Of a DNA stretch of 64,000 nucleotides, positions 48,915 to 62,832 are shown piece after piece. How positions within the stretch are numbered: the stretch's first letter is position 1; every line of letters begins with the position of its first letter. The stretch is from Candidatus Krumholzibacteriota bacterium. Its GTDB lineage: Bacteria > Krumholzibacteriota > Krumholzibacteriia > JAJRXK01. The notes below the pieces were generated by a model. The model was not told where the DNA came from and did no database searches. It worked only from the letters and a program-made list of their open reading frames with translations. The translations under genes and the position numbers were made by a program. Location: contig JAJDAC010000002.1 in assembly GCA_029262065.1 (NCBI GenBank), forward strand, positions 186,001 through 250,000, read 5' to 3'.

Positions 48915-48955
48915 ATCCAACTTCGGTCAGAACGTGGCCTAGCCGAACAAGAAGA

Positions 48956-48990
48956 AAGGCGCCCCGAGATATCGGGGCGCCTTCTCTTGT
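48956..48990. terminator. Bidirectional rho-independent terminator
   Basis: Twelve-base perfect stem AAGGCGCCCCGA / TCGGGGCGCCTT with a GATA loop, then CTCTTGTTT; lies between genes ending at 48914 and 49036. Confidence 0.9.
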
Positions 48991-49035: not shown

Positions 49036-50316
49036 TCAGCGGCCCACGGGTACCGACCCCGTGTCGGCCAACGATCGCGACTGGGCCGTCAGATCTTCCA
49101 TCTCTTCCACAATACGGTTGGCCTCGCCCCCATCGTCCATCCCGTCCAGATCGCGCACCCGGTCGCGCTCCTCGCGCATGGCGTCAAATTCGGCGATCTC
49201 CGCGGGCGTCATGGCTCCCGGCTCCTTCTCGAAGTGGAACTTGCCATCTTCGACGGTCACCGTGACCAGGTCCCCCCGCACAATCTGACCACTGCAGATC
49301 AGATTGCCAATGGGCGTGATCAGCTCGGTCTCGACCGCGCGACGCAGCGGGCGGGCGCCAAATTGAGGGTCGGTGCCAATGCGCACCAGTTCGACCTTGG
49401 CCTCTTCTTCCACCTTCAGCAGGAAGGGCTCGGTGCAGTCGATACTGCGGATGTGGATGTTGGCAATGAGGTTGTCGAGAATCTCGTACAGGTGCTCCTG
49501 CTTGAGGGTCTCGTAGGTCACCAACTCGTCGAAGCGGTTGATGAACTCGAACGGAAACACCTTCTTGGCCTCGCGCATGGCGGCGGCGCTCAGATCGGCG
49601 TCCAGGCGACCGTGTTCGTGACCACCCCGGAAACCGATGTTCTCTTCGGCCAGGTGCACGCCCATCGCCTTGCTACCCACGTTGGTGGTCAACACGATGA
49701 TCGACTTGGTGAAATCCACTTCTTCGTTGTTGCCCAGCACCAGATTTCCGTCGTCCAGGATGCCCAGCAACATGTTCCAGAGCTTGGGGTGAGCCTTCTC
49801 GACCTCGTCGAAAAGCACCACGGACAGATTGGATCCCTCTTCTTCGGCGAACTGGGGACCCAGGCCGTCGCTGAACAGCCCCAGGCCCTCTTCCATGGCC
49901 TTCTTGTGGTGACGGTCCAGGTTCTCCTGGCACAGCAGAGGCTTGATCTCGCCGCCCACGTAGCCTGGAGGGCTGCCCAGCAGCTTGCTCAGGTTGTAGT
50001 GCGCCGAATACTCCTGGCAGTTGACCCGGGTGAAAGCGCGCCTCGAGCCGAAGAGCGACTCGGCCAGGCAGCGCACCGTCTCAGTCTTCCCAACCCCGGT
50101 GGGGCCCAGAAGCATCATGGTCAGAATCGGCCGCTCGGGATCGCTGATCCCAGCGAGCACGCGGCTGAAAGCGTTGGTCACCGTGGAGATCGCACCGGGC
50201 TGGCCAATTACCATGCGGTGCATCTGGTCCCGAAACCGATCCAACTGGGGGTTACGCTCGGCGGGATCTAGCCTGACACGCGAATCCGGAAGAGCGCACG
50301 GGGCCGGTTTGGACAT
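49036..50316 (-). CDS. Single-module Clp/Hsp100-type AAA+ ATPase
   Basis: A 426-residue protein equal to the second ATPase module of ClpA/ClpB. It has Walker A LLGPTGVGKTETVRCLAES, the pore-loop region GSPPGYVG, Walker B VVLFDEVEKAHPKLW, sensor 1 IIVLTTNVGSKAMG, and the small C-terminal domain with sensor 2 FGARPLRRAVE. The N-domain and first AAA module are missing. No ClpP-binding loop is apparent. A charged tail of about 70 residues follows. ATG 50316 has GGAGGA upstream. Role (unfoldase, disaggregase or regulator) is unknown. Confidence 0.88.
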   Translation of the reverse strand: MSKPAPCALPDSRVRLDPAERNPQLDRFRDQMHRMVIGQPGAISTVTNAFSRVLAGISDPERPILTMMLLGPTGVGKTETVRCLAESLFGSRRAFTRVNCQEYSAHYNLSKLLGSPPGYVGGEIKPLLCQENLDRHHKKAMEEGLGLFSDGLGPQFAEEEGSNLSVVLFDEVEKAHPKLWNMLLGILDDGNLVLGNNEEVDFTKSIIVLTTNVGSKAMGVHLAEENIGFRGGHEHGRLDADLSAAAMREAKKVFPFEFINRFDELVTYETLKQEHLYEILDNLIANIHIRSIDCTEPFLLKVEEEAKVELVRIGTDPQFGARPLRRAVETELITPIGNLICSGQIVRGDLVTVTVEDGKFHFEKEPGAMTPAEIAEFDAMREERDRVRDLDGMDDGGEANRIVEEMEDLTAQSRSLADTGSVPVGR

Positions 50317-50563: not shown

Positions 50564-52228
50564 CTATTGCACGACCCAGGTCTGCAAGTAGGGGGCAACC
50601 TGACCATCGCGTTCTTCACGAAAACGATCGTCGACGCGTGGCGACACGGGAGAGTTGCGTTGCAAATAGCGCGACAGCGCATCGCGGGTCAGCAGTTGGG
50701 TATATTGCGCCCGATCAGGCGGAATCTGGGCAAGAAAATCCAACCCCGAATTTCCCTCCATCAGGTAGTCCACCGTGACCACTTTGTACAGACGATCGGG
50801 GTCGATCGGACCGCCTGCGATCTCCACCTCGAGCAATCGCCGGTACTCGGGAGCGTCAGGATCGACCACGACCTTCGCTCCGCTCTGGAACAACCCACTG
50901 CTCCGGCGACTGGCCTTGCGGTCGAGAATCTGGCAGATCATGCGACCTTCCATTTCGACCACGACCAGGCTGTTGCCAAACGGCAGCAAGCGCAGGAGGT
51001 CACCAGCCGTGATGTTGCCCCGGGACAGGTCGGTCCGCAGACCGCCGGTGTTCGAAAATGCCCAGTCGGCCTTGAACGCGTCGCGCATGGCATCGGTCAC
51101 GAAGTTGCCCATCACGCTGTTCGATTTGCCACGGCGTGCCAGCTCCACCGTGGTCCGGCCTACGACCTCGGACAGTCCCTCGTTGGCCTCCTCGATGTGC
51201 GGCGCCAGGCGCTCGGCCATCTTGGCTTCGGGCCACCATTCGTCCTCGAACAGAGTCACCAGCACGCCGTCGCGACGAGGGGTGTCGTAGCCCAGGATCA
51301 GGCCCGTCTCGCGGTCGACCCGCAGGATCGCGTGGCCCACCGACGAGCCATTGCCGAAGGTCTCGAATACCATGTTATGCGTATAGGGGTCGATCCAGGG
51401 TTCCCGATAGCCGCGATGGGTATGGCCACCCACGATCACCGGCACGTTCTCGACAAGATGGGCCAGATCCATGGCTCCGTGCACCTTGGCCTTCATCTGG
51501 GCCACGTCGCTGCGCCGCGCCAGTAGTTCCTTCCATTCCTCTTCGGCATCGAAGGGCAATCCCTCGTGCACCACCAGCATCACGAAGTCGCAGAGCTCTT
51601 CATTCAGCAGGATGTCCCGCTGCTTTTCGACGGCAGGAATGATGTCACCGAAGTGCAGACCTTCCACGTTCTCTTCGAAGGCCATGTCCACGGTGCCCGG
51701 GGTGGCCGCGCCGATGATGCCAATGCGAAGGCCGGCCTTCTCCACGATGCGGTAGGGCTGGATCCAATCGACCAGCTTGTCGTTCTCGTCGTAGATATTG
51801 GCGCAAATGAACTGCGGCTCGATTCCCTCCGACAACGAGATGGCCACGTCCTTGCCCTTGTCGAACTCGTGGTTACCCACGGTCACGGCGTCGTAGCCCA
51901 GTTCGTTGAAGTAGTCGGCCATGACCCGACCCTCGGTAATGGTACCCACCGGCGAACCCTGCCAGGTATCGCCCGCGTCGACCAACAGCACGGCTTGGTT
52001 GGGGTCGCCCTCGATGGACGCTCGCAGTTCTTTCAAGTAACGAGCGGCCGAGGCACCGCCGCCCAATGGCGGAGGGAAGTTGGGATTCATGAAAGTCGCA
52101 CCACGCGGATCGACGTAGCCGTGGATGTCGTTGGTGAACACCAGGTGGATGATGGCCACGTCTTCGGCCAGGGCCGGCTTGACGGCCAACAGCAAAAGGG
52201 CCAGTCCGAGTGAAACTCTCGCGCGCAT
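50564..52228 (-). CDS. Periplasmic 5'-nucleotidase/UDP-sugar hydrolase (UshA-like)
   Basis: A 554-residue exported metallophosphoesterase, last gene of the six-gene operon. A signal peptide ends at KPALA. The calcineurin-type metal motifs are complete: FTNDIHGYVD, DAGDTWQGSP, VGNHEFDKG and GGHTHRGY. The C-terminal 5'-nucleotidase domain has RRGKSNSVMGNFVTDAMRD, SNTGGLRTDL and LLPFGNSLVVVEM. Such enzymes dephosphorylate nucleotides outside the inner membrane. ATG 52228 has an AGGAG site and starts 4 bases after the preceding gene. Confidence 0.93.
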   Translation of the reverse strand: MRARVSLGLALLLLAVKPALAEDVAIIHLVFTNDIHGYVDPRGATFMNPNFPPPLGGGASAARYLKELRASIEGDPNQAVLLVDAGDTWQGSPVGTITEGRVMADYFNELGYDAVTVGNHEFDKGKDVAISLSEGIEPQFICANIYDENDKLVDWIQPYRIVEKAGLRIGIIGAATPGTVDMAFEENVEGLHFGDIIPAVEKQRDILLNEELCDFVMLVVHEGLPFDAEEEWKELLARRSDVAQMKAKVHGAMDLAHLVENVPVIVGGHTHRGYREPWIDPYTHNMVFETFGNGSSVGHAILRVDRETGLILGYDTPRRDGVLVTLFEDEWWPEAKMAERLAPHIEEANEGLSEVVGRTTVELARRGKSNSVMGNFVTDAMRDAFKADWAFSNTGGLRTDLSRGNITAGDLLRLLPFGNSLVVVEMEGRMICQILDRKASRRSSGLFQSGAKVVVDPDAPEYRRLLEVEIAGGPIDPDRLYKVVTVDYLMEGNSGLDFLAQIPPDRAQYTQLLTRDALSRYLQRNSPVSPRVDDRFREERDGQVAPYLQTWVVQ

Positions 52229-52232
52229 GGTC

Positions 52233-53657
52233 CTACTCCTCGAAATCGTGTTGGTCACCTTCGCGGTGACCTTCGTGGTCGCGGTGTTTGTCGTAGCCGG
52301 AATCGCAATCGTGCGCACCGTGGGCCACCTTGGTGGATTGTAAAGCTCGTTCGACATGGACTTCGTAGCTCAGGCCGTCGGTGACGAACGTCATGTTGTG
52401 GTTCCAACCGCTGGTGTACGGAATATCGAGGGCCGGAATGTCGTTCACCACGAAGATATCGGCGCCCACGCTGGCAATGCGGTTCAGGGCCCCAGACGAA
52501 TCGGAGATGTAGCCTTCGTACCCGTCGTTGTACTCGAGGGTGGATACCGGCAACATGGCAATTCGTGGCTTCACGGCGTTCAGGAAAGCCAGGCTGCTGC
52601 CGTCGTTGCGACCGTGGTGATGCGCCTTGAAGTACTCCGCGTTCAGGTCGGCCGCGTCGAACGCCGCCAACATGCTTTGCTCGGCCTCGAACTCGGCGTC
52701 GCCGCCGATGATGAAATCGACGTCACCGTAGGTGATCTTGAAGACGATGGACTCGTTGTTGATGTTATCGCTCTCGAAGTCCTTCACCGGCACATCGGAT
52801 GCCAGACCACTGTTGAGAATGGTCACACTGACGGCAGGATCCCAGGCCAAAGCAGGCTGCGTCTGGTCGGTATCGAACCGGTTGACGATGACGCGCTCGA
52901 CGTTCTCGGCCGCAATGATGGTCAGAGCGTCACCATAGGCGTTCCGGAAATGAGTCTTGGACGGTGAGTCGAGAAAGATCTCGGGATCGAACGCCTCGAT
53001 GATGGGCGGGAACTGAGAGTCGCCGTCTACCAGGCCGCCAATGTGATCGTAGTGAACGTGGGTAGCGGCCACGACGTCCAGGTCCGTCACGCCCACGCTC
53101 TGGAAGTACTCAGCCACCGAGCGCGAGGCATTGCCGTCACCGGAGTCTATGAGCACACGCTTGCCCGACGTGGGCATGGTCATGATGTGGGCGTCGCCCC
53201 AACCAATATGCATGAGAGTCGACGTCAGGAGCGGCGCACTCATCTTGGCGCTGGTTGCGATCGTAGCCTGTACTTCGCTGCTGGCCGTGACCGCACCACC
53301 ACTGGTGGTGGAGAGCACTTGCAGGAAGACATCCTGCCCGTCCTGTACCGACAACAACGGAACGCGGTGGTTCTTGCGTAGGGCGCGATCCTCGCGATTG
53401 GCAGCCGCGGGGTAGGCCACCATGGAGTAGTCACCCGAGGTAAACCCGTAGCGGACCGACGCCCGCGTCGACACGTCGGTGGTCCAGGTAACCACGTTGC
53501 CATTCACGGCGACGCCGGCGGTCACCGGATCGGGGTCGGTGACTCGCTCTTTGCTGCTACACGAGCCCAAGACGAGGGTCGCGGCCATGAGCGCCGCCAC
53601 CAATCCCGCGCCGGGGATTGATCTGGGTCCCGGGATGGGCCTGGATGAACTGCGCAC
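52233..53657 (-). CDS. Lipoprotein with ComEC-type metallo-beta-lactamase domain
   Basis: A 474-residue lipoprotein (lipobox VLGSC, Cys33). Residues about 45-135 form a fibronectin-like domain. Residues about 145-440 are a metallo-beta-lactamase fold: HVHYDH at 200-205, then NNESIVFKITYG, IIGGDAEFEAEQ and KAHHHGRNDGSS. The layout, including the NxSxV strand before the GDAE ligand, matches the MBL domain of ComEC, a proposed nuclease in DNA uptake. The C-terminus is His/Asp-rich (HDCDSGYDKHRDHEGHREGD), a likely metal-binding tail. Start GTG 53657 has GGAGG six bases upstream. Substrate is not proven by sequence. Confidence 0.85.
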   Translation of the reverse strand: MRSSSRPIPGPRSIPGAGLVAALMAATLVLGSCSSKERVTDPDPVTAGVAVNGNVVTWTTDVSTRASVRYGFTSGDYSMVAYPAAANREDRALRKNHRVPLLSVQDGQDVFLQVLSTTSGGAVTASSEVQATIATSAKMSAPLLTSTLMHIGWGDAHIMTMPTSGKRVLIDSGDGNASRSVAEYFQSVGVTDLDVVAATHVHYDHIGGLVDGDSQFPPIIEAFDPEIFLDSPSKTHFRNAYGDALTIIAAENVERVIVNRFDTDQTQPALAWDPAVSVTILNSGLASDVPVKDFESDNINNESIVFKITYGDVDFIIGGDAEFEAEQSMLAAFDAADLNAEYFKAHHHGRNDGSSLAFLNAVKPRIAMLPVSTLEYNDGYEGYISDSSGALNRIASVGADIFVVNDIPALDIPYTSGWNHNMTFVTDGLSYEVHVERALQSTKVAHGAHDCDSGYDKHRDHEGHREGDQHDFEE

Positions 53658-53677
53658 GAATCCTCCGAAAACCGAGG

Positions 53678-55018
53678 CTAGAACTGTCGCGATACGCCAA
53701 CCAGCACGCGGAAAACGCTGTCTTCCACCTTGTGCAGCGTCTGCTCCACAGAGAACCCGGCGGTACTGGCATCGAACACGTAGTCCTGGAAACTGGTCTG
53801 GCGGTGAAACTGAACGGTCAGGTCCAACACCACGTCTTCCACAACGTGCCCAACACCGGCCGAGAAGATGGAACGATCCGACTCCCGATCGGCGTAGCTC
53901 TCAAGGTAACGAAAGCCAAATCGGATGGGAGTGCCATTATAGAACGTATGCTCCACGCCCATACGGAGGTCCCACGTGTTCTGTAGATCCAGCAGAATTT
54001 CTTCTTCACCGGCCGCGTCCAGCGCCAGATTCGTCGCGTCGACGAAGTCATCGGTCAGCGAATCCCAGAAGCGCCGGGTCGCCTGCACCGTCAGACTTGT
54101 TCGTAACTCGTTGCGCGGACGATATGTAGCCCCAACGTTCAGTACCGACGGGTATTCGAGGTCGTAGTCGCCATTTTCGGCCAGGACCACCGTGGGGTCT
54201 TCGGCTCCGGCCAGGGTGGCTCGGGAGTCGTGGGCTCCATTCAATTTGACCGGCGCCTCGAAACTCACTCCCACCGAGACCCGTTCGCGCACGTTCACGT
54301 GGGTTCCGACCGACCAGCCCCAGCCGGTGAGATCCCGGGAAACCCTGAGATCGGCATCGCTGCCGGCCAGGGGAGCCTCGGATGTGAACGACTCCAGGGT
54401 GCCGTAGTAGCGATGGGCGCTGAAGCCCAGGTCGGCCTGCACGTCGTCATTGGCCAGAAGCTCGGTGGCGTAGCCCGCCGAAACGCTGCGCAGCTTGCCC
54501 TCGTCCTTGATCTGGTTGAACGACAGGATACGGTCTCGCGGCGTGGAGTCCGGATCGGGATCACGAATCTCCTCGATGTAGTCGTACTCCGAATCGTACC
54601 GCTCGAAGATTCCCACGCTCAGCGCCATTCGGCGGTCGTTGGACAGCCCGAACACCACACCACCCTCGCCCAGTCCCGATGTCGTCCGGTTGGTAGCAAA
54701 CACGGTGTCGTTCACGAAGCTGTCGAAACTATCGAACAACGGCACCGACCGGTCTTCGCTGGCCTGCGATATTCCCAACTGAAATTGCAGCGCGAAACCC
54801 GAGGGGGCCTGCGCCAGCATAGCTGGGTTGTGAATCAGACTGGCGCTGCCCAGGTAACGGGACACTCCCGCCGAGCCCATCGCCGCCGCGGCGCCGTTGC
54901 CCTGGTCAACCGGTGTACCGTACTGCCGATCGAGCCGGGTGGTAGCGTCGGCTCCGCTCGGAGCGAGCAGCAAAGCCACGCACACAACGAGGATCCAGGC
55001 GTTCAATGCATGTCGCAT
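53678..55018 (-). CDS. FadL-like outer-membrane beta-barrel
   Basis: A 446-residue exported protein. After the signal peptide (ending GADA) it shows the FadL/PorV-type start QGNGAAAAMGSAGVSRYLGS followed by ASLIHNPAMLAQ, then alternating amphipathic strands, and ends in Phe, the usual terminal residue of outer-membrane barrels. FadL-type channels import hydrophobic or small aromatic compounds. ATG 55018 follows AAGGGG. It is 13 bases from the HhH-barrel gene. Confidence 0.82.
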   Translation of the reverse strand: MRHALNAWILVVCVALLLAPSGADATTRLDRQYGTPVDQGNGAAAAMGSAGVSRYLGSASLIHNPAMLAQAPSGFALQFQLGISQASEDRSVPLFDSFDSFVNDTVFATNRTTSGLGEGGVVFGLSNDRRMALSVGIFERYDSEYDYIEEIRDPDPDSTPRDRILSFNQIKDEGKLRSVSAGYATELLANDDVQADLGFSAHRYYGTLESFTSEAPLAGSDADLRVSRDLTGWGWSVGTHVNVRERVSVGVSFEAPVKLNGAHDSRATLAGAEDPTVVLAENGDYDLEYPSVLNVGATYRPRNELRTSLTVQATRRFWDSLTDDFVDATNLALDAAGEEEILLDLQNTWDLRMGVEHTFYNGTPIRFGFRYLESYADRESDRSIFSAGVGHVVEDVVLDLTVQFHRQTSFQDYVFDASTAGFSVEQTLHKVEDSVFRVLVGVSRQF

Positions 55019-55031
55019 GGGTCAAGTCCCC

Positions 55032-57560
55032 TTAGAAGGTGTAGTCCATCTGGACGCGGAAAGCGGTAAGGTTGTCGCGCACGTTGTCGCCCTCGCCACG
55101 CGCGGGATCAACGGGCTGGTTGTCCAGGTCACGAGCCTGGATGAATCCGGTTTTCAACTGGTCGTTGGTAAGCTTGAAGCGCAGCGACAGGTTGTCGCTG
55201 AGGCGCGAGCGCACACTGATCCAGTTGCGAAAGCCCGTGCCGTCCAACAGCACGAACTCGGTGTCTTCGAAGTTCCAGTAGAATCCCTGGTACATGAGCG
55301 TAACCAGCTGAACCTGGAATCGGTCGTTCACGTTGTGCGTCAGGGCGCCACTGATGGCTCGCCCGGGGCTACCGACCTGGGCCAGGGAATTCGTCGAGTT
55401 GGGCTCGGCGCCGCGCGACAGTCGCGGACGGGGCGCAAATTCGGTGTTCGTGGTGCTGTACCCCAACCGGAGTTCATCGAAACCACTGAGCCGTACGCGA
55501 GCTTCGATACGAGTGTCCCAGCCCTTGAACCCGCGCACATCCTCGATGCCCTGCTCGCTACGGCTACTGAAGCGATGCCGCACGCGAAACCGCAACGGAA
55601 ACAGCGGGGCGTATTCGGCGCGAAACGTGAAGCGACGCAGATCCTGCCCGTCGGCCACACGCGTCCACTGATCAAATTCAAAGCCAGTGATAGTGAGCTT
55701 GCGGTTCACGCGGTAGCGCGTGGAGAACGCGAACCCCTTTTCGGGCTTGTGCTGAGGCGTGTCGAACTCCAGGTAGCTCAGAAATGGGTTGTTCATCCGG
55801 AACGGATCGCCGGCCAGCGTCTGTTCGTAGCGCGAGTCCTCGCTGTAGGGACGCGCGTAGGGATTGTCAAACCCAAGATCGTAGTTGCGATACAGGCCCA
55901 GGATAGTCAGATCGCTGTACTGGGCGTACGCGTTGACGACCCAGGCCTCGGGCGCCTTGCTGAACAAACCCGAAAGACCACTCTCATCAGGATTGGAGTC
56001 AAGCTTGGCGTACTCTCCCTGCACAGCAAAGTTCTCGACCACGGTCTGGAACTCAGCTCCCACCACGCGACGAAACTTGCCCAACTCGGTCGAGTCGTAG
56101 TCGCTGAATATTTCGCTGTCACGCGCTTGCAGCAGGCCCGGATCCTCGAACAATAGATCGGTTTCAGGCCGGATGAGTTCGTTGTACCGGGCTTCGTACC
56201 CAGTCACCCCCACGAAAGTACCGGGGATAATCTCGAACTTGAGGTTGCCACCGATGATGGTCTCTTCGATTCCGTCGGGGCGGATGGTGCCGGTAAAATT
56301 GGGCCCAGCGTTTTCCACCAGCGACTGCTCGAACCGAGGAATTGAAATGTAGCGGTTGATGGTGCCGTCGGCGTTGAAGATGCCATCCTTCTTGTCATCA
56401 CTAAGAAACGCCAGGCCGTGGAACCGACCGGCCGTACCCTCCACGGCCACGCCGCGCAGCGCGTACTGACGCGTGCGCGACAGATCGCCCTGCACGCCCG
56501 AAGGCCGTTTGTTGAAACCAAAGCCGCTTTTCCGGGGCAGGTAGAAATCGGTGTTGTCCATGATGAGACCCTGACCCAGGGCTATCCGGAAATTACCCAC
56601 AACCACCCTGTCCAAGCCGTACCGCTTCCGTTCCCCCCGCCAGGCCGCGAACCCCTTGACCGTTTCATCGAAATCCTGCTCGCCTACATCCCGGTAGCTC
56701 ATGATCCCACCCTTCCATTGCGGCCCGAACCGGAGACGCAACTTGGACAGGAAGGCGGGGTTGGGGTCCTCGATGAAGTTTCGAACTGAGCGAAGATCCG
56801 TGAAGTCGCCCAGAACGGCAGCTGCATTGCCAGTAAGTGCGAGGTCTCCACCAGAATCCGAATCGTCCCCGCCGCGATTCTTGGTATTGAATGACAGGAT
56901 CTGCAAGTCGCCGTGCAGCTCCTCTTCCGTATCAGCGTCGTCCTCACCGTAATTCACGTAATCACGCAGATTCCGGTAGCCCCAGTAGCTCAGGCCATCG
57001 CTACCACGTAGCTGTCGGGTGCCTTCAATACCACCGGATTGGTCACGCGCGTTGATGATGGCCACCGCGTCGACCGGCGAAACATTCTGGTAGCCCTGCA
57101 GGTCGTACAAACTCAGTTGGTTCACGTCCTGCGGGTCACGCAGAAGGTCCAGGTACTCATCGGCCAGGCCTTCGCTGGCCCCTTCACGACTCAGGAACTG
57201 CTGCACCTGACGGAAGCTGGCGTCATAGCGTTGCATGGCCTGGCTGGCGGCCGGCGGCGGCAAGGTCGACACCAGCGGGCGCAACGTCTTCAGTACCTGC
57301 GGCGTCATTCCGTCGACCTCTGAAAGGTCGAAGAAAGAATCGAAGTACTTCACGAAAGTCCGGTGGCGATGGATCGCGCGGCCGAGCTCCTCGGTCACCG
57401 GCAGCTCGAGAATCTCCTCGAGCGTCGCCCGGTTGAGATCCACGCGACCGGTCATTGGGTCGACGGTGGGCGGATCGGCCCAAGCCAACGACGCGGCCGT
57501 CAGGAACGTGATCGCCAAAGCGATCGCCAACGATTGGGAGAGACGAGCGAGTTTGCTCAT
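55032..57560 (-). CDS. Outer-membrane beta-barrel with N-terminal ComEA-like helix-hairpin-helix region
   Basis: An 842-residue exported protein. The signal peptide ends near SLAWA. Residues about 38-98 resemble the ComEA DNA-binding fold (VDLNRATLEEILELPVTEEL, then FFDLSEVDGMTPQVLKTLRP); a weaker second copy spans about 140-205 (DVNQLSLYDLQGYQNVSPVD). The usual GIG hairpins are degenerate (PVTEELG, DGMT). Residues about 215-842 are beta-rich with many aromatic girdle residues and a terminal Phe, as in outer-membrane barrels. The DNA-binding role is inferred. ATG 57560 overlaps the PorV-like gene in an ATGA. Confidence 0.8.
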   Translation of the reverse strand: MSKLARLSQSLAIALAITFLTAASLAWADPPTVDPMTGRVDLNRATLEEILELPVTEELGRAIHRHRTFVKYFDSFFDLSEVDGMTPQVLKTLRPLVSTLPPPAASQAMQRYDASFRQVQQFLSREGASEGLADEYLDLLRDPQDVNQLSLYDLQGYQNVSPVDAVAIINARDQSGGIEGTRQLRGSDGLSYWGYRNLRDYVNYGEDDADTEEELHGDLQILSFNTKNRGGDDSDSGGDLALTGNAAAVLGDFTDLRSVRNFIEDPNPAFLSKLRLRFGPQWKGGIMSYRDVGEQDFDETVKGFAAWRGERKRYGLDRVVVGNFRIALGQGLIMDNTDFYLPRKSGFGFNKRPSGVQGDLSRTRQYALRGVAVEGTAGRFHGLAFLSDDKKDGIFNADGTINRYISIPRFEQSLVENAGPNFTGTIRPDGIEETIIGGNLKFEIIPGTFVGVTGYEARYNELIRPETDLLFEDPGLLQARDSEIFSDYDSTELGKFRRVVGAEFQTVVENFAVQGEYAKLDSNPDESGLSGLFSKAPEAWVVNAYAQYSDLTILGLYRNYDLGFDNPYARPYSEDSRYEQTLAGDPFRMNNPFLSYLEFDTPQHKPEKGFAFSTRYRVNRKLTITGFEFDQWTRVADGQDLRRFTFRAEYAPLFPLRFRVRHRFSSRSEQGIEDVRGFKGWDTRIEARVRLSGFDELRLGYSTTNTEFAPRPRLSRGAEPNSTNSLAQVGSPGRAISGALTHNVNDRFQVQLVTLMYQGFYWNFEDTEFVLLDGTGFRNWISVRSRLSDNLSLRFKLTNDQLKTGFIQARDLDNQPVDPARGEGDNVRDNLTAFRVQMDYTF

Positions 57561-58468
57561 TCGTCGTCTCCGTCGTTGAAGAGCACGCTCACACCGAACT
57601 GATGCGACGCATCCAGGGTGCCACCACCCGATGAGAACGCGTAGTGGAGCGACGCCACCTTCGGCACATTCACGCCGAATCCAAAACTATACTTGTTGGG
57701 GTCGGTCTCAATGCCCACCCGCAGGTCCAGGTACTCCGTCACCGCAAACTCGGTGCCGCCGTGGAAGCGCATTTCCTCGCCCAACTGGTTGCGAATGTCG
57801 AACGTGGTGGTCACGCCTTCGTACGGTTCGTAGGCGATACCTACCCCCACCAGCTGGGTCAGCTCTTCCTGGTCGATGCCAATGGTGGGGTTGTTCATAT
57901 TGCGAATGTAGAAACCGGCGGTGGTGCGTTCATACAGCGTAGCCATTACGCCCACGTTCAAGCCGACCGCCCAGGCCGAGCCGGGGTCCAGTCCACCAAC
58001 GGTCTCGGCCAGCTCCAGGTTGTGGAAGTCGGCCGCCCAACCAAAGTGCAGGCTGCTGCTCGCGTCCTGGAACAACGTGATGCCGTGCGCAAACGTGAGG
58101 GACTGCTCTTTGGAGAGCGATTGATCCTTGAAATCCACGCTGAAGTAACGATAGCCGAACGCCACGCCGCCGCGGTCGCCGGGTAGCTTCGCCGAAGCGC
58201 CCAACGCCGACAATCGCGTGAAGTCCAGGTTGAACGGTTCGGCCGTCGACGTGGACACGTGCGTGTGGTTCAGGAACGCCAGTGCGGCCGGATTGTGATA
58301 GAAGGCCCAGGCATCGCCCCGTGCGGCAATTGAGGCTTCACCCATGGCACGGGCGCGAGGGCTGATCGACAGGTCCTCGAACAGAGTCGCACGAGCCGAC
58401 CCGGCCACCATGATGGTGACCGCAACGGCGGACAGGAAGCAGATGCGGAGTTTCTTCGAGTTCGTCAT
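57557..58468 (-). CDS. PorV/PorQ-family outer-membrane protein
   Basis: A 303-residue exported protein (signal peptide ending ARA). The mature start ISPRARAMGEASIAARGDAW then AFYHNPAALAF is the PorV/PorQ signature. PorV carries type IX secretion cargo from translocon to attachment complex. The gene directly follows one for a secreted protein with a FlgD-like C-terminal domain, which would fit a shuttle or receptor role. ATG 58468 has GAGGAAA and lies 8 bases after that gene. Confidence 0.82.
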   Translation of the reverse strand: MTNSKKLRICFLSAVAVTIMVAGSARATLFEDLSISPRARAMGEASIAARGDAWAFYHNPAALAFLNHTHVSTSTAEPFNLDFTRLSALGASAKLPGDRGGVAFGYRYFSVDFKDQSLSKEQSLTFAHGITLFQDASSSLHFGWAADFHNLELAETVGGLDPGSAWAVGLNVGVMATLYERTTAGFYIRNMNNPTIGIDQEELTQLVGVGIAYEPYEGVTTTFDIRNQLGEEMRFHGGTEFAVTEYLDLRVGIETDPNKYSFGFGVNVPKVASLHYAFSSGGGTLDASHQFGVSVLFNDGDDE

Positions 58469-58476
58469 GTCTTTCC

Positions 58477-61400
58477 TCACCGGTCCAGACGGGTCGCGAC
58501 GACCACGGGCATTTGGGCGTTCGTACGGGCGCCGGTTATCCGATCGACCACCGCGAGGTGGGCGACGTAGGCACCTGCCGACACGCGCTCGGAGAATTCG
58601 TCGTACCCGTCCCACTCGACGGTTACCTCGAGGTCTTGGGCGAGGCGCAGATTGAGACTCAAATCGAAGCGGCTGTCGTAGAGCGTTAGCTTGCGACGGC
58701 CCTGCAAATCAAAGATGCGCAGCTGAACCTCACCCTGTAGCGACTCCCCGTCGAACAACGAGGCCGGCACCACCACGGTGATGGGATACACCTCGCCTTC
58801 GCGCGGCAAGAAGGTATTGGCCGGCCCATCGAGCGATGCTTGCGTGGGCGGTGGAGCCCGCAGCTCGATGGATTGGCTCAGGGTTCGGTTGCCGTCCTCG
58901 TCTTCGGCATTCAGTATCGTGAGGGTCCAGTCGTCATCCAGGCTCACGGCCGAGCTGAGCGTAACGGTAACCACCGCGCTACCCGCGCTGTGGCTGGCCG
59001 ACGACGCGGTAACCGTATCGGTACCGTTGCTCACGGAAAAATTGGCCGGCTCGGTGCCAAAGCTGTTGGCCACCGGCTCGTTGAAACGCGCGACAACCCG
59101 TGTCTCCGTCTCGAGAAACGCCTGAAGCACGATGGGACCCGAGAGATCGGGCGGCTCTACATTCGTGAGATCGGAGACGTTACCGACGGTGACCTGGAAG
59201 GTGGTCTGGAACTGGCTGCCAGCACCACTGGCCCAGACCGTCTCACCCACGTCGTAGTCCGTCGCGCCCAGGTCGTCGTCAACGCGCGCGGTGATGGATC
59301 CCGCATCGTCCACGATCGTGTAGTTGGTTGCCCCGCCCACATTGGTGGCCTTCGCCGTGATCGTACCGTTGACCCGGATGTATGTACCCTCGTAGGCCGA
59401 GCTACTCGCATCCGTCGTCAGCAGCGGCGTGGGCTGCAAGGGCGGGTTGCCCGTTGAGACCACCGTGACGTTGCTGATGTTCTCGATCTCCACGGTCGTG
59501 AAGAACAAGGTGATGGTACCCGTCATTCGCACCACGGTGCCAAGGTCCTGAAACGCAGATCCCTCAGCCCCCGAGCCGAACACGTTGATGCCCCGCCCCG
59601 AAGAATCTTGAATGTAGCCCGACGGCAGCGTGCCGCGGGAAAGGGTCGGGATGTACACCTGACCCTCGATCGTAACTTCCTGATCGACGAATGCCTGCGG
59701 ATTCGCCTGGATCACGGCGATCGGCGTGACTCCCGAAGACGAAAACGTAAACGTGGCCGAGTTGCCGCCGGCAATCGCGTTGCCCGCCAGGTCCTCTACG
59801 TTGGAGACCTGCACGGTGTAGCCGACGCCGTCGGTCATGTCGGCCGCCAGGGACAACGTGACCGAAGAGCCCGCCGCCGCGGCCGCGCTGACACCGATGG
59901 TGTTGGCCGGAGTGGAAGTCTGGAAGACCGAGTAGTTGGTCGCGTTCTGAGCCCCGGCCGCCGCGAGGGCTTCGCTGAAATTGACGCGAATCTGCCGCAC
60001 GGCCGTGCCGGTCGCACTCGCGACCGTGGGCGGCGTGGTATCCGGCCCACCCCCATCCACGAAGATGTCGGTCGGACTCCCCACCAGAATCTGGAAATCA
60101 CTCTGGAACTGACTACCCGCGCCACGCGCGGTAATGGTCTGACCCTGGCTGAAGCTGCTGGCACCCGTGGTGTTGTGCACGCGGACCAGGACGGCTCCGC
60201 TACCATCATTGACTGTGTAGTTGGTAGCCCCGCCCACGTTGGTGGCCACCGACGTGATGTCGCCGTTCACCTCGATGAACGTACCTTCGAAGGCAGCGTT
60301 GCTCGCACCCGACGTCGTCACCACTTGCGGAGCCAACGGCGTGTTGCCCGACGATATGACCGTGACCGATGTGATGTCTTCGATTTCCACCGTGGTGAAG
60401 AACAGCGCCACGGTACCGGTGACTTCCACGATGTTTCCGATGTCCTGCAACGCGGGAACGCCACTGCCGTTGCCGAACAAGTTGATGCCACGTCCCGAGC
60501 CATCCTGGATGTAGCCGCTGTCCACATCGGTACGGTAGTTCGTGGGGATGTACACCTGGCCACGCACGGTTACTACCTGGCCCTCAAAACCCGCGGTGTT
60601 GGCGTGGATGTCGGCGATGGGCGTGGCCGATGAGGCGGAGTAGGTGAAGGTGGCCGAGTTGCTACCGGCAATCGCATTGCCGGCCAGATCTTCCACGCTT
60701 GTGACCTGGACCGTGTAGCCCACGCCTTCCGACAGGGCCGAGCCCAGATTCAGAGTGGCTGAGCTGCCCGACGCGCTCGCGGACGACACCGAGAACGTGT
60801 TGGCGGGGGTGGCCGTTTCAAACACCGAGTAGTTGCCCGCGTTGCCACCCGTCACGGTGTCGACTGCTTCGCTGAAATTCACGCTTACCTGCGTGTCGCT
60901 GGGAGCACCGGCGCCGGTGACCGTGGGTGGCGTGGTATCGGGACCGCCGCCACCCAGGAAAATGTCAGAGGTCAGGCCGACCAGAATCTGGAAATCGGTC
61001 TGGAACGCGCTGCCCGCGCCGCGCGCGGTGATGGTCTGGCCCACGTTGAAGCTGCTGGCGCCCAGCGTGTTGTGCACCCGCACGATGATGGGACCGCTGC
61101 CGTCGTTCACCGTGTAGTTGGTAGCGCCACCAACATTGGTGGCCACCGACGATACGTTGCCGGAAACCCCGATGTACGTGCCCTCGAAGGCCGAGTTGCT
61201 CGCCCCCGACGTCGTCACCGTCTGCGCGGTGAGCGGCGTGTTTCCCGACGAGATCACCGTGACCGAGGTGATATCGGCGATCTCCACCGTGGTGAAGAAC
61301 AGCGTCACCGTACCGGTGACCTCCACGATGTTGCCCAGGTCCTGCAACGCGGGAACGCCACTGCCCGTGCCGAAGATATTGATGCCGCGTCCGGAACTGT

Positions 61401-62832
61401 CCTGGATGTAGCCGCTGTCCAGATCGCTGCGGTAGTCGGTGGGGATGTACACCTGACCACGCACCGTGACCACCTGGCCCTCAAAGGCCGCGGTGTTGGC
61501 GTGGATGTCGGCGATGGGAGTAGCCGTGGACACGGTATAGGTGAACGTGGCCGAGTTCGATCCGGCGATCGCGTTGCCCGCGATGTCCTCTACGCCGGTG
61601 ACCTGCACCGTGTAACCAGTACCGTCGCTCAGTGCCGATGCAAGCGTCAAGGTTGCGGACGAGCCCGAAACAGAGGCCGAGGCCACGCTTACCGTGTTGC
61701 CCGGTGCCGCGGTTTCGAACACCGAGTAGTTGCCTGCCACACCACCGGTGGTGGCATCGATGGCTTCGCTGAACGTCACGTTCACTGAAGTGTCAGTGCC
61801 CGCCGCGGCCGCTGAAACCGTGGGAGGCGTGGTGTCGGGTCCGCCTCCACCCAAGAAGATGTCGCTGGTCAGGCCCACCAGAATCTGGAATGTGGACTGG
61901 AACGCGCTGCCCGCGCCCCGCGCAGTGATGGTCTGGCCAACGTTGAAGCTGCTGGCCCCCACCGTATCGTGCACGCGCACGACGATCGGCCCGCTACCGT
62001 CGTTGACCGTGTAGTTGGTAGCTCCGCCCACATTCGTAGCCACGGCGGTTACGTCACCCGCGATTTCTACGTACGTACCCTCGAAGGCGGCGCTGTTCGC
62101 GCCGGCGGTTGTCGTCGTCTGCGCGGTCAGCGGCGCGTTGCCCGACGAGACCACGGTCACCGCCGTGATGTCTTCGAGTTCCACGGTCGTGAAGAACAGC
62201 GTTACGGTACCCGTGACCTCTACGATGTTGCCCAGGTCCTGGAGGGCAGGAACGCCGCTACCGGTTCCGAACACGTTGATGCCTCGGCCCGAATCGTCTT
62301 GGATATAACCGCTCTCCAGATCGCTACGATAGTTGGTAGGCAGGTACACCTGGGCGCGCACGGTTACAACTTGGCCGTCGAACGCCCCAATGTTTGCATG
62401 AATGTCCGCGATCGGCGTGATCACCGTGCCGCTGCCACCATCGCCTTCAAACACGGTATCCACCAGTGCGCTACCAGTACCGCCGCCGAGTGGCTCCACG
62501 TTGGCACTACGCAGTGTGTACTGCAGTGAAGTATTGAGTTCGGCCCCCAACTCCAGGACCGCACGGTCGCCAATGACGCTCACCGCCGCAACGGGAACCG
62601 TGTTCGCCGGAAGCGCCGTCTCCCAGATTTGGTAGTTGCCGACGTCGGCCCCGGTCGTGGGATCGATGTCGACGTCGAATGTCACTTCGACTTCTTCGAC
62701 ATCGGTGGCAACCACTCCCGTCACCGACGGCTGCGCAAGCGCGGACCCGGCCATGAGCATCAAGGCAAGAACACATGCCACGGGCAAAGCCAGGAGCGGC
62801 GATGTGCATTGGTAGAATCGCTTGGGATTCAA
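58477..62832 (-). CDS. Giant secreted repeat protein: Ig, four OB-OB-Ig units, FlgD-like tail
   Basis: A 1451-residue exported protein, first gene of the operon. TTG 62832 is the likely start: GAGGAG lies 8 bases upstream and it gives a clean signal peptide ending GSALA. Order: one Ig-like (SbsA/Big_5) domain; four 299-residue units, each with two OB-like segments (SGYIQDSSGRGINIFGTGSG and NYTVNDGSGPIIVRVHN are examples) and one Ig-like domain (TPPTV, VNVTFSEAID, GNYSVFET); then a C-terminal domain (LRIFDLQGRRKLTLYDS, VEWDGYDEFSERVSAGAYVA) of the FlgD-Ig/type IX sorting kind. Such OB segments accompany extracellular nucleases in other proteins, but no nuclease domain is seen here. Probably surface-bound; possible ligand nucleic acid. 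Confidence 0.85.
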   Translation of the reverse strand: MNPKRFYQCTSPLLALPVACVLALMLMAGSALAQPSVTGVVATDVEEVEVTFDVDIDPTTGADVGNYQIWETALPANTVPVAAVSVIGDRAVLELGAELNTSLQYTLRSANVEPLGGGTGSALVDTVFEGDGGSGTVITPIADIHANIGAFDGQVVTVRAQVYLPTNYRSDLESGYIQDDSGRGINVFGTGSGVPALQDLGNIVEVTGTVTLFFTTVELEDITAVTVVSSGNAPLTAQTTTTAGANSAAFEGTYVEIAGDVTAVATNVGGATNYTVNDGSGPIVVRVHDTVGASSFNVGQTITARGAGSAFQSTFQILVGLTSDIFLGGGGPDTTPPTVSAAAAGTDTSVNVTFSEAIDATTGGVAGNYSVFETAAPGNTVSVASASVSGSSATLTLASALSDGTGYTVQVTGVEDIAGNAIAGSNSATFTYTVSTATPIADIHANTAAFEGQVVTVRGQVYIPTDYRSDLDSGYIQDSSGRGINIFGTGSGVPALQDLGNIVEVTGTVTLFFTTVEIADITSVTVISSGNTPLTAQTVTTSGASNSAFEGTYIGVSGNVSSVATNVGGATNYTVNDGSGPIIVRVHNTLGASSFNVGQTITARGAGSAFQTDFQILVGLTSDIFLGGGGPDTTPPTVTGAGAPSDTQVSVNFSEAVDTVTGGNAGNYSVFETATPANTFSVSSASASGSSATLNLGSALSEGVGYTVQVTSVEDLAGNAIAGSNSATFTYSASSATPIADIHANTAGFEGQVVTVRGQVYIPTNYRTDVDSGYIQDGSGRGINLFGNGSGVPALQDIGNIVEVTGTVALFFTTVEIEDITSVTVISSGNTPLAPQVVTTSGASNAAFEGTFIEVNGDITSVATNVGGATNYTVNDGSGAVLVRVHNTTGASSFSQGQTITARGAGSQFQSDFQILVGSPTDIFVDGGGPDTTPPTVASATGTAVRQIRVNFSEALAAAGAQNATNYSVFQTSTPANTIGVSAAAAAGSSVTLSLAADMTDGVGYTVQVSNVEDLAGNAIAGGNSATFTFSSSGVTPIAVIQANPQAFVDQEVTIEGQVYIPTLSRGTLPSGYIQDSSGRGINVFGSGAEGSAFQDLGTVVRMTGTITLFFTTVEIENISNVTVVSTGNPPLQPTPLLTTDASSSAYEGTYIRVNGTITAKATNVGGATNYTIVDDAGSITARVDDDLGATDYDVGETVWASGAGSQFQTTFQVTVGNVSDLTNVEPPDLSGPIVLQAFLETETRVVARFNEPVANSFGTEPANFSVSNGTDTVTASSASHSAGSAVVTVTLSSAVSLDDDWTLTILNAEDEDGNRTLSQSIELRAPPPTQASLDGPANTFLPREGEVYPITVVVPASLFDGESLQGEVQLRIFDLQGRRKLTLYDSRFDLSLNLRLAQDLEVTVEWDGYDEFSERVSAGAYVAHLAVVDRITGARTNAQMPVVVATRLDR
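58831..62418 (-). repeat. Four tandem 897-bp coding repeats
   Basis: Units at 62418-61522, 61521-60625, 60624-59728 and 59727-58831. Matching sites (for example the codons at 62402, 61505, 60608 and 59711, and at 62015, 61118, 60221 and 59324) are exactly 897 bases apart. The first three units are close; the fourth is more diverged but of the same length. Confidence 0.92.

Follow-up and report, generated by a model that had tools for sequence, protein, structure and literature searches.

We analyzed a 64,000-nucleotide stretch (hereafter the window) of a 5.8 Mb Candidatus Krumholzibacteriota draft genome (assembly GCA_029262065.1, contig JAJDAC010000002.1, positions 186,001 to 250,000), in which an operon of six minus-strand genes, designated A to F, runs from position 62832 to 50564. 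An original prediction, made from the sequence alone, had read these genes as one envelope operon for the capture and salvage of extracellular nucleic acid. We found the operon to encode a conserved and apparently undescribed outer-membrane module whose parts belong mostly to known families. Domains were assigned by Pfam and NCBIfam profile searches of the six proteins, the scores being compared with the family cut-offs. The genes and features are as follows.

58477..62832, minus strand: gene A, predicted secreted repeat protein with four tandem-OB (oligonucleotide/oligosaccharide-binding) units alternating with Big_5 Ig domains (PF13205, PF01336), and a C-terminal domain of the type IX secretion system (T9SS) type
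61864..62418, minus strand: tandem-OB unit 1 of A, residues 139-323, repeat register TPIADIHAN
60967..61521, minus strand: tandem-OB unit 2 of A, residues 438-622, repeat register TPIADIHAN
60070..60624, minus strand: tandem-OB unit 3 of A, residues 737-921, repeat register TPIADIHAN
59173..59727, minus strand: tandem-OB unit 4 of A, residues 1036-1220, repeat register TPIADIHAN, modelled
58480..58821, minus strand: C-terminal domain of A, residues 1338-1451, FlgD/T9SS type A-like
57557..58480 (start approximate), minus strand: gene B, PorV/PorQ-family outer-membrane protein (NF033709, E 3.5e-16, below cut-off)
55032..57560, minus strand: gene C, helix-hairpin-helix (HhH) domain fused to a large outer-membrane beta-barrel (HHH_3, 44.7 bits; AlphaFold2 model)
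56943..57449, minus strand: degenerate HhH region of C, residues 38-206, four hairpins, no GhG
53678..55018, minus strand: gene D, FadL/TodX-type barrel, BamG paralogue (PF03349; weak NF053685 match; TodX structures)
52233..53657, minus strand: gene E, lipoprotein with a ComEC-type metallo-beta-lactamase (MBL) domain, accessory (Protein Data Bank matches to ComEC only)
50564..52228, minus strand: gene F, UshA-like 5'-nucleotidase, catalytic motifs all intact

All six open reading frames (ORFs) lie where they had been predicted, and the close spacing agrees as well: B and C overlap by 4 bases, and gaps of 13, 20 and 4 bases separate C from D, D from E and E from F. A and B overlap by 4 bases only if B starts at its GTG; an alternative ATG about 12 bases downstream would leave a short gap. 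Gene A starts with TTG, preceded by GAGGAG, and F with the ATG at 52228, the ORF listed for F in the ORF table being longer.

Gene C was present in 41 of 80 Krumholzibacteriota genomes at 42-56% identity: in three of the four genomes of the window's own family (f1), in all 38 of family f6 and in none of the other families. The order A-B-C-D was the same in the 27 Krumholzibacteriota loci read, with F following in 26 and the contig ending earlier in the remaining one. A is kept in all 27 as its tail of about 115 residues, this C-terminal domain being the sole part common to them. E was found in only 2 of 28 loci (the window and G009) and is therefore an add-on, not a core member.

A contig scan with a single C protein as query gave no match, and the same scan with an alignment as query returned relatives from WOR-3 at about 25% identity. 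When 147 genomes of that phylum were searched, about 50 C proteins of full length came up. In 38 of the 40 WOR-3 loci read, C is preceded by B; many of the 40 carry A-B-C-D-F in the same order, and the order B-C-D(-F) was seen in 21 loci of the WOR-3 group. Being conserved between two phyla, the gene order is far beyond chance. Over all loci, B lies directly upstream of C almost without exception, and deeper WOR-3 lineages retain only A-B-C or B-C; B-C is therefore the core, with A, D and F as frequent partners. Thus, of the six families expected side by side in relatives, five (A, B, C, D and F) recur in the same order in Krumholzibacteriota and most of the set recurs in WOR-3, E being the part that does not hold. 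No diverged C was found beside the D homologues read in other Krumholzibacteriota families. In five WOR-3 loci (L201, L205, L206, L208 and L209), B-C-D-F is followed by two frames foreign to the cassette; in L201 and L208, the two loci scanned, these encode a DHH protein of the RecJ type and a methyltransferase of the RlmI type.

The block can also be missing as a whole. Genome G008, 99% complete and of the same genus as G007, lacks C and all of A-F at the block site, where EIIA is immediately followed by a Clp orthologue (71% identity), the ends of the two matches lying about 360 bases apart. The six genes are thus gained or lost together, and the block behaves as one dispensable unit. This joint loss, together with the order conserved in two phyla, bears out the prediction of a single envelope operon. 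Two further features lie downstream of it in the window.

49036..50316, minus strand: Clp-type AAA ATPase, seventh gene, after the block, which it tracks at family level
48955..48984, minus strand: terminator-like hairpin of 13 pairs, after the Clp gene

The ATPase gene follows the block in Krumholzibacteriota loci wherever the contig is long enough. In 8 checked genomes of block-lacking families we found no close Clp orthologue, only generic Clp relatives.

In protein A, Pfam recognized Big_5, an OB domain above cut-off (PF01336, 33.8 bits against 27) and a weak FlgD/T9SS-type tail. The N-terminal part is exchanged between lineages: tandem OB in f1, lamin-tail domains (LTD) in f6 and OB in WOR-3, where the A proteins of L211 and L220, read by eye, combine OB with LTD. 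Among 20 A proteins, 15 matched the OB region of ExeM/NucH, 11 DUF5689 and 8 LTD, and some had CBM_56-like stretches between the LTDs. OB unit 4 and the tail (residues 1036-1451) were modelled with AlphaFold2 at a pLDDT (predicted local distance difference test) score of 84.5. Because PorU was the top Foldseek match of this model, followed by a row of tandem-OB domains from HIN-200 proteins (target TM 0.4-0.5), the claim of OB-like segments stands at the level of predicted structure, the folds being of the tandem type found in DNA-sensing HIN domains. The FlgD-like tail, also part of the original prediction, is PorU-like in the model. As a candidate T9SS cargo (type A-like), A has an N-terminus that is hydrophobic by eye, a tail with the PorU fold match and Por_Secre_tail or FlgD_ig matches in only part of its family.

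B, predicted as PorV/PorQ-like, has NF033709 as its best informative match, at 59.7 bits against a cut-off of 90, so the assignment holds by nearest family and falls short of formal membership. The T9SS context is real: all 80 Krumholzibacteriota genomes have SprA, as do 145 of the 147 genomes of the WOR-3 group, which also rules out C as a replacement of the T9SS translocon, and the window's genome holds 11 PorV-family matches besides at least 150 tails of the FlgD type. In Flavobacterium, the destination of a cargo is decided by its cognate shuttle, whose gene lies directly behind that of the cargo (PMC12618676), and PorV picks up the tail of the cargo at the opening of SprA (PMC10994853). 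By analogy, B may be a dedicated carrier or anchor of A. The block resembles such pairs of T9SS cargo and PorV/PorQ or PorP/SprF shuttle in that a candidate cargo gene is directly followed by a gene of the barrel-shuttle type in genomes with SprA; it differs in adding two more barrels and hydrolases to the operon and in the sub-threshold score of B.

C combines an HHH_3 match above cut-off with a barrel, as had been predicted; the AlphaFold2 model has a helical N-terminus and, by our own count, about 24 long strands. Predicted folds thus support both the OB domains of A and the barrel of C. A plasmid search unexpectedly yielded relatives of C, 682-693 residues long, from Bacteroides finegoldii (L256 5578-7626) and Phocaeicola massiliensis (L257), whose HhH and barrel parts were both matched by the C profile (E 1.8e-25, the search set being small). 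The former, WP_237924592.1, is annotated as 'helix-hairpin-helix domain-containing protein', and the record of the other carries no annotation. By profile WP_237924592.1 belongs to the same family as C, with HhH, a barrel with the GNYR...GQGL motif and likewise no GhG; unlike C it has 682 residues and a single HhH pair, is accompanied by none of A, B, D and F, and is uncharacterised. The L256 and L257 records are labelled plasmids yet look chromosomal (nadA, housekeeping genes). The window's genome also encodes a 731-residue frame with an HHH_3 domain and one GhG (L001, G000:C33), unrelated to the block.

D, predicted as a FadL-like barrel, matched the FadL/TodX family PF03349 above cut-off (41 bits) and has TodX structures among its relatives. 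Like BamG of the Bacteroidota BAM complex (PMC12611786), it is a FadL-type barrel, and it matches BamG weakly (NF053685, 39.5 bits); that score is far below the cut-off of 250, and a stronger BamG match elsewhere in the genome rules D out as the genome's BamG.

The hydrolases differ in how firmly they belong to the block. F has both PF02872 and PF00149 and the motifs NDIH, GNHE, GGHTH and GGLR, as expected of the predicted UshA-like 5'-nucleotidase; its structural relatives are nucleotidases, and its score below the UshA equivalog cut-off leaves the substrate unfixed. The catalytic motifs are intact in the window, in complete Krumholzibacteriota copies and, except for L202, in WOR-3 copies from loci free of phospholipase D (PLD) genes. 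In seven WOR-3 loci with Nuc-type PLD genes (L192, L195, L197, L199, L210, L099 and L100), F is truncated and has lost its catalytic residues, retaining the family-specific F(M/I)NPxFPPxLGG motif. In this comparison, which takes in genomes without control for relatedness, it looks as if the active enzyme had been exchanged, PLD for F, with F staying as a structural part. The nearest solved relatives of the PLD are Nuc and NucT, and cardiolipin enzymes were also matched. In one WOR-3 clade the block also includes a T9SS-tailed PHP hydrolase and a PorQ-like protein: F is followed there by a second cargo-shuttle pair, seen in L204 (14135-16274) and L198 (3765-5941), and in L204 the hydrolase of this pair is of the CehA/McbA type.

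The MBL domain of E was recognized above cut-off (47.8 bits); E also gave a ComEC-like match, and its structural relatives are ComEC MBL domains only. Judged by these closest structures, E may work like the ComEC MBL domain; the competence transmembrane domain PF03772 was not matched in E, and ComEC proper lies at G000:C16. A ComEC-type MBL lipoprotein had thus been recognized correctly, its place in the operon core had not. WOR-3 ComEC frames are long (about 760-800 residues) where F is intact and mostly short (about 450-630 residues), perhaps without the MBL domain, where F is dead or missing (G080-G084 versus G175-G191), a split that may reflect shared ancestry only. As a set, the 5'-nucleotidase, ComEC-type MBL and Nuc-type PLD families speak for a nucleic-acid theme, but the PLD also matches the cardiolipin enzymes.

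In agreement with the claim that no described system has this gene set, we found no description of it in the open-access literature. The closest experimental precedent would be in Riemerella anatipestifer, likened here by the family labels DUF5689 and HhH only: a transposon screen found a DUF5689 surface protein (RA0C_RS04920), an adjacent outer-membrane barrel (RA0C_RS04915) and an HhH protein (RA0C_RS02645) to be essential for transformation, and no type IV pilus parts are named among the novel transformation genes (PMC8459023). Like the block, this FCB-group bacterium pairs a barrel with a surface protein of the DUF5689/OB type and also has an HhH protein; unlike in the block, HhH and barrel are separate genes in Riemerella, and no PorV, BamG-like or nucleotidase gene shares an operon with them. 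The extracellular nucleases ExeM/NucH share LTD and tandem-OB accessory domains with A (NF033681, OB part, in the 15 A proteins above), and in ExeM deletion of a region with two OB folds nearly abolishes nuclease activity (PMC6085458). A differs in ending with a T9SS-type tail and in its match to the OB part alone, no EEP nuclease domain having been found in it.

We propose that the genes encode one accessory outer-membrane module. As its tail, family and gene order suggest, A would leave through the type IX system and pass to B, a PorV-type carrier of its own, so as to display tandem OB domains, lamin-tail domains or both outside the cell. C would be a wide barrel with the degenerate HhH domain at its periplasmic mouth, forming with B the core of a putative complex, probably a channel or docking hub, with D as a companion barrel of the FadL type. 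The captured polymer, most likely extracellular nucleic acid or its fragments, may be trimmed by envelope phosphoesterases, namely F and, depending on the lineage, also E or enzymes of the PLD or PHP type. We tentatively favor a T9SS-displayed module that catches and processes nucleic acid or its fragments, a function we regard as quite possible rather than probable. Of the capture idea in the original prediction, the OB folds of A, hydrolases nearest to nucleic-acid and nucleotide enzymes and the T9SS context are retained; DNA binding by HhH and a core role of E are not. A bolder version, which we consider speculative and improbable, is a pilus-independent outer-membrane DNA-uptake channel in FCB-group bacteria, in which a wide barrel with a ComEA-derived periplasmic domain, a T9SS-displayed tandem-OB/LTD receptor and interchangeable nucleases would feed ComEC.

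Several observations weigh against a nucleic-acid function. Canonical DNA binding by the HhH domain of C, predicted from its ComEA likeness, is unlikely because GhG is lost and the region is not basic: GhG is absent from the four hairpins in essentially all 70 sequences (one hairpin keeps it in one sequence, L202), and the net charge is -8 in the window, compared with +4 in the genome's own ComEA, where GVG and GIG are intact. The regional mean is acidic in Krumholzibacteriota (-6.9) and near neutral in WOR-3 (+1.1). The C model has a pLDDT of 71 and no specific structural relative, the Foldseek matches being generic outer-membrane barrels. Charges per 100 residues are -6 for OB and -11 for LTD, no more basic than in the genome's other T9SS-type proteins. 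The block has no secreted EEP nuclease, F is catalytically dead in the seven PLD loci and in L202, and several WOR-3 lineages are reduced to B-C or A-B-C. Finally, nearly all genomes have ComEC whether they carry the block or not, so their co-occurrence gives no signal.

The same proteins could instead serve envelope assembly or surface anchoring, as a complex comparable to BAM or to the T9SS attachment complex, with the phosphoesterases acting on envelope lipids or glycans and not on foreign nucleic acid. The PorV likeness of B, the BamG likeness of D and the resemblance of the A tail to that of PorU suit this, as do the deep WOR-3 lineages that keep B-C without hydrolases and the retention of F although catalysis is lost. 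In four WOR-3 loci the block follows lpxL-lptC-lptA-lptB-rpoN, but these neighbours are not common to Krumholzibacteriota; the lpt/rpoN neighbourhood is confined to one WOR-3 subclade and was ruled out as the context of the block. With the block cleanly absent from G008 and all other Krumholzibacteriota families, hence dispensable, and a better BamG candidate elsewhere in the genome, we find this explanation doubtful. A capture and uptake system for another polymer, such as a polysaccharide, phospholipid or teichoic-type phosphate polymer, built like the starch utilization system (SUS) and using OB and LTD as generic adhesion domains, would fit the acidity of these domains, the CBM_56-like stretches and the fact that PLD and FadL families act on lipids too. 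It is unlikely in our view, as all three enzyme types placeable by structure have relatives nearest nucleic-acid or nucleotide enzymes, and Pfam found no glycosidase, SusD or TonB plug (hence no SusC plug barrel) in the six proteins. That an ordinary T9SS cargo gene merely lies beside unrelated housekeeping genes might be suggested by the abundance of FlgD-type tails and PorV-family matches in the genome; this idea is refuted by the order kept across phyla, and the joint loss in G008 and the overlapping or nearly touching genes leave it hardly any probability.

How DNA and other large polymers pass the outer membrane in FCB-group bacteria is largely an open question. The block offers a defined gene set over two candidate phyla, in which a core pair of PorV-type protein and HhH-barrel is joined by a putative receptor displayed through T9SS and by phosphoesterases that can be exchanged. 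A family of Bacteroides HhH proteins, uncharacterised so far, can moreover be assigned to the same family of outer-membrane barrels, which makes that family testable in culturable strains.

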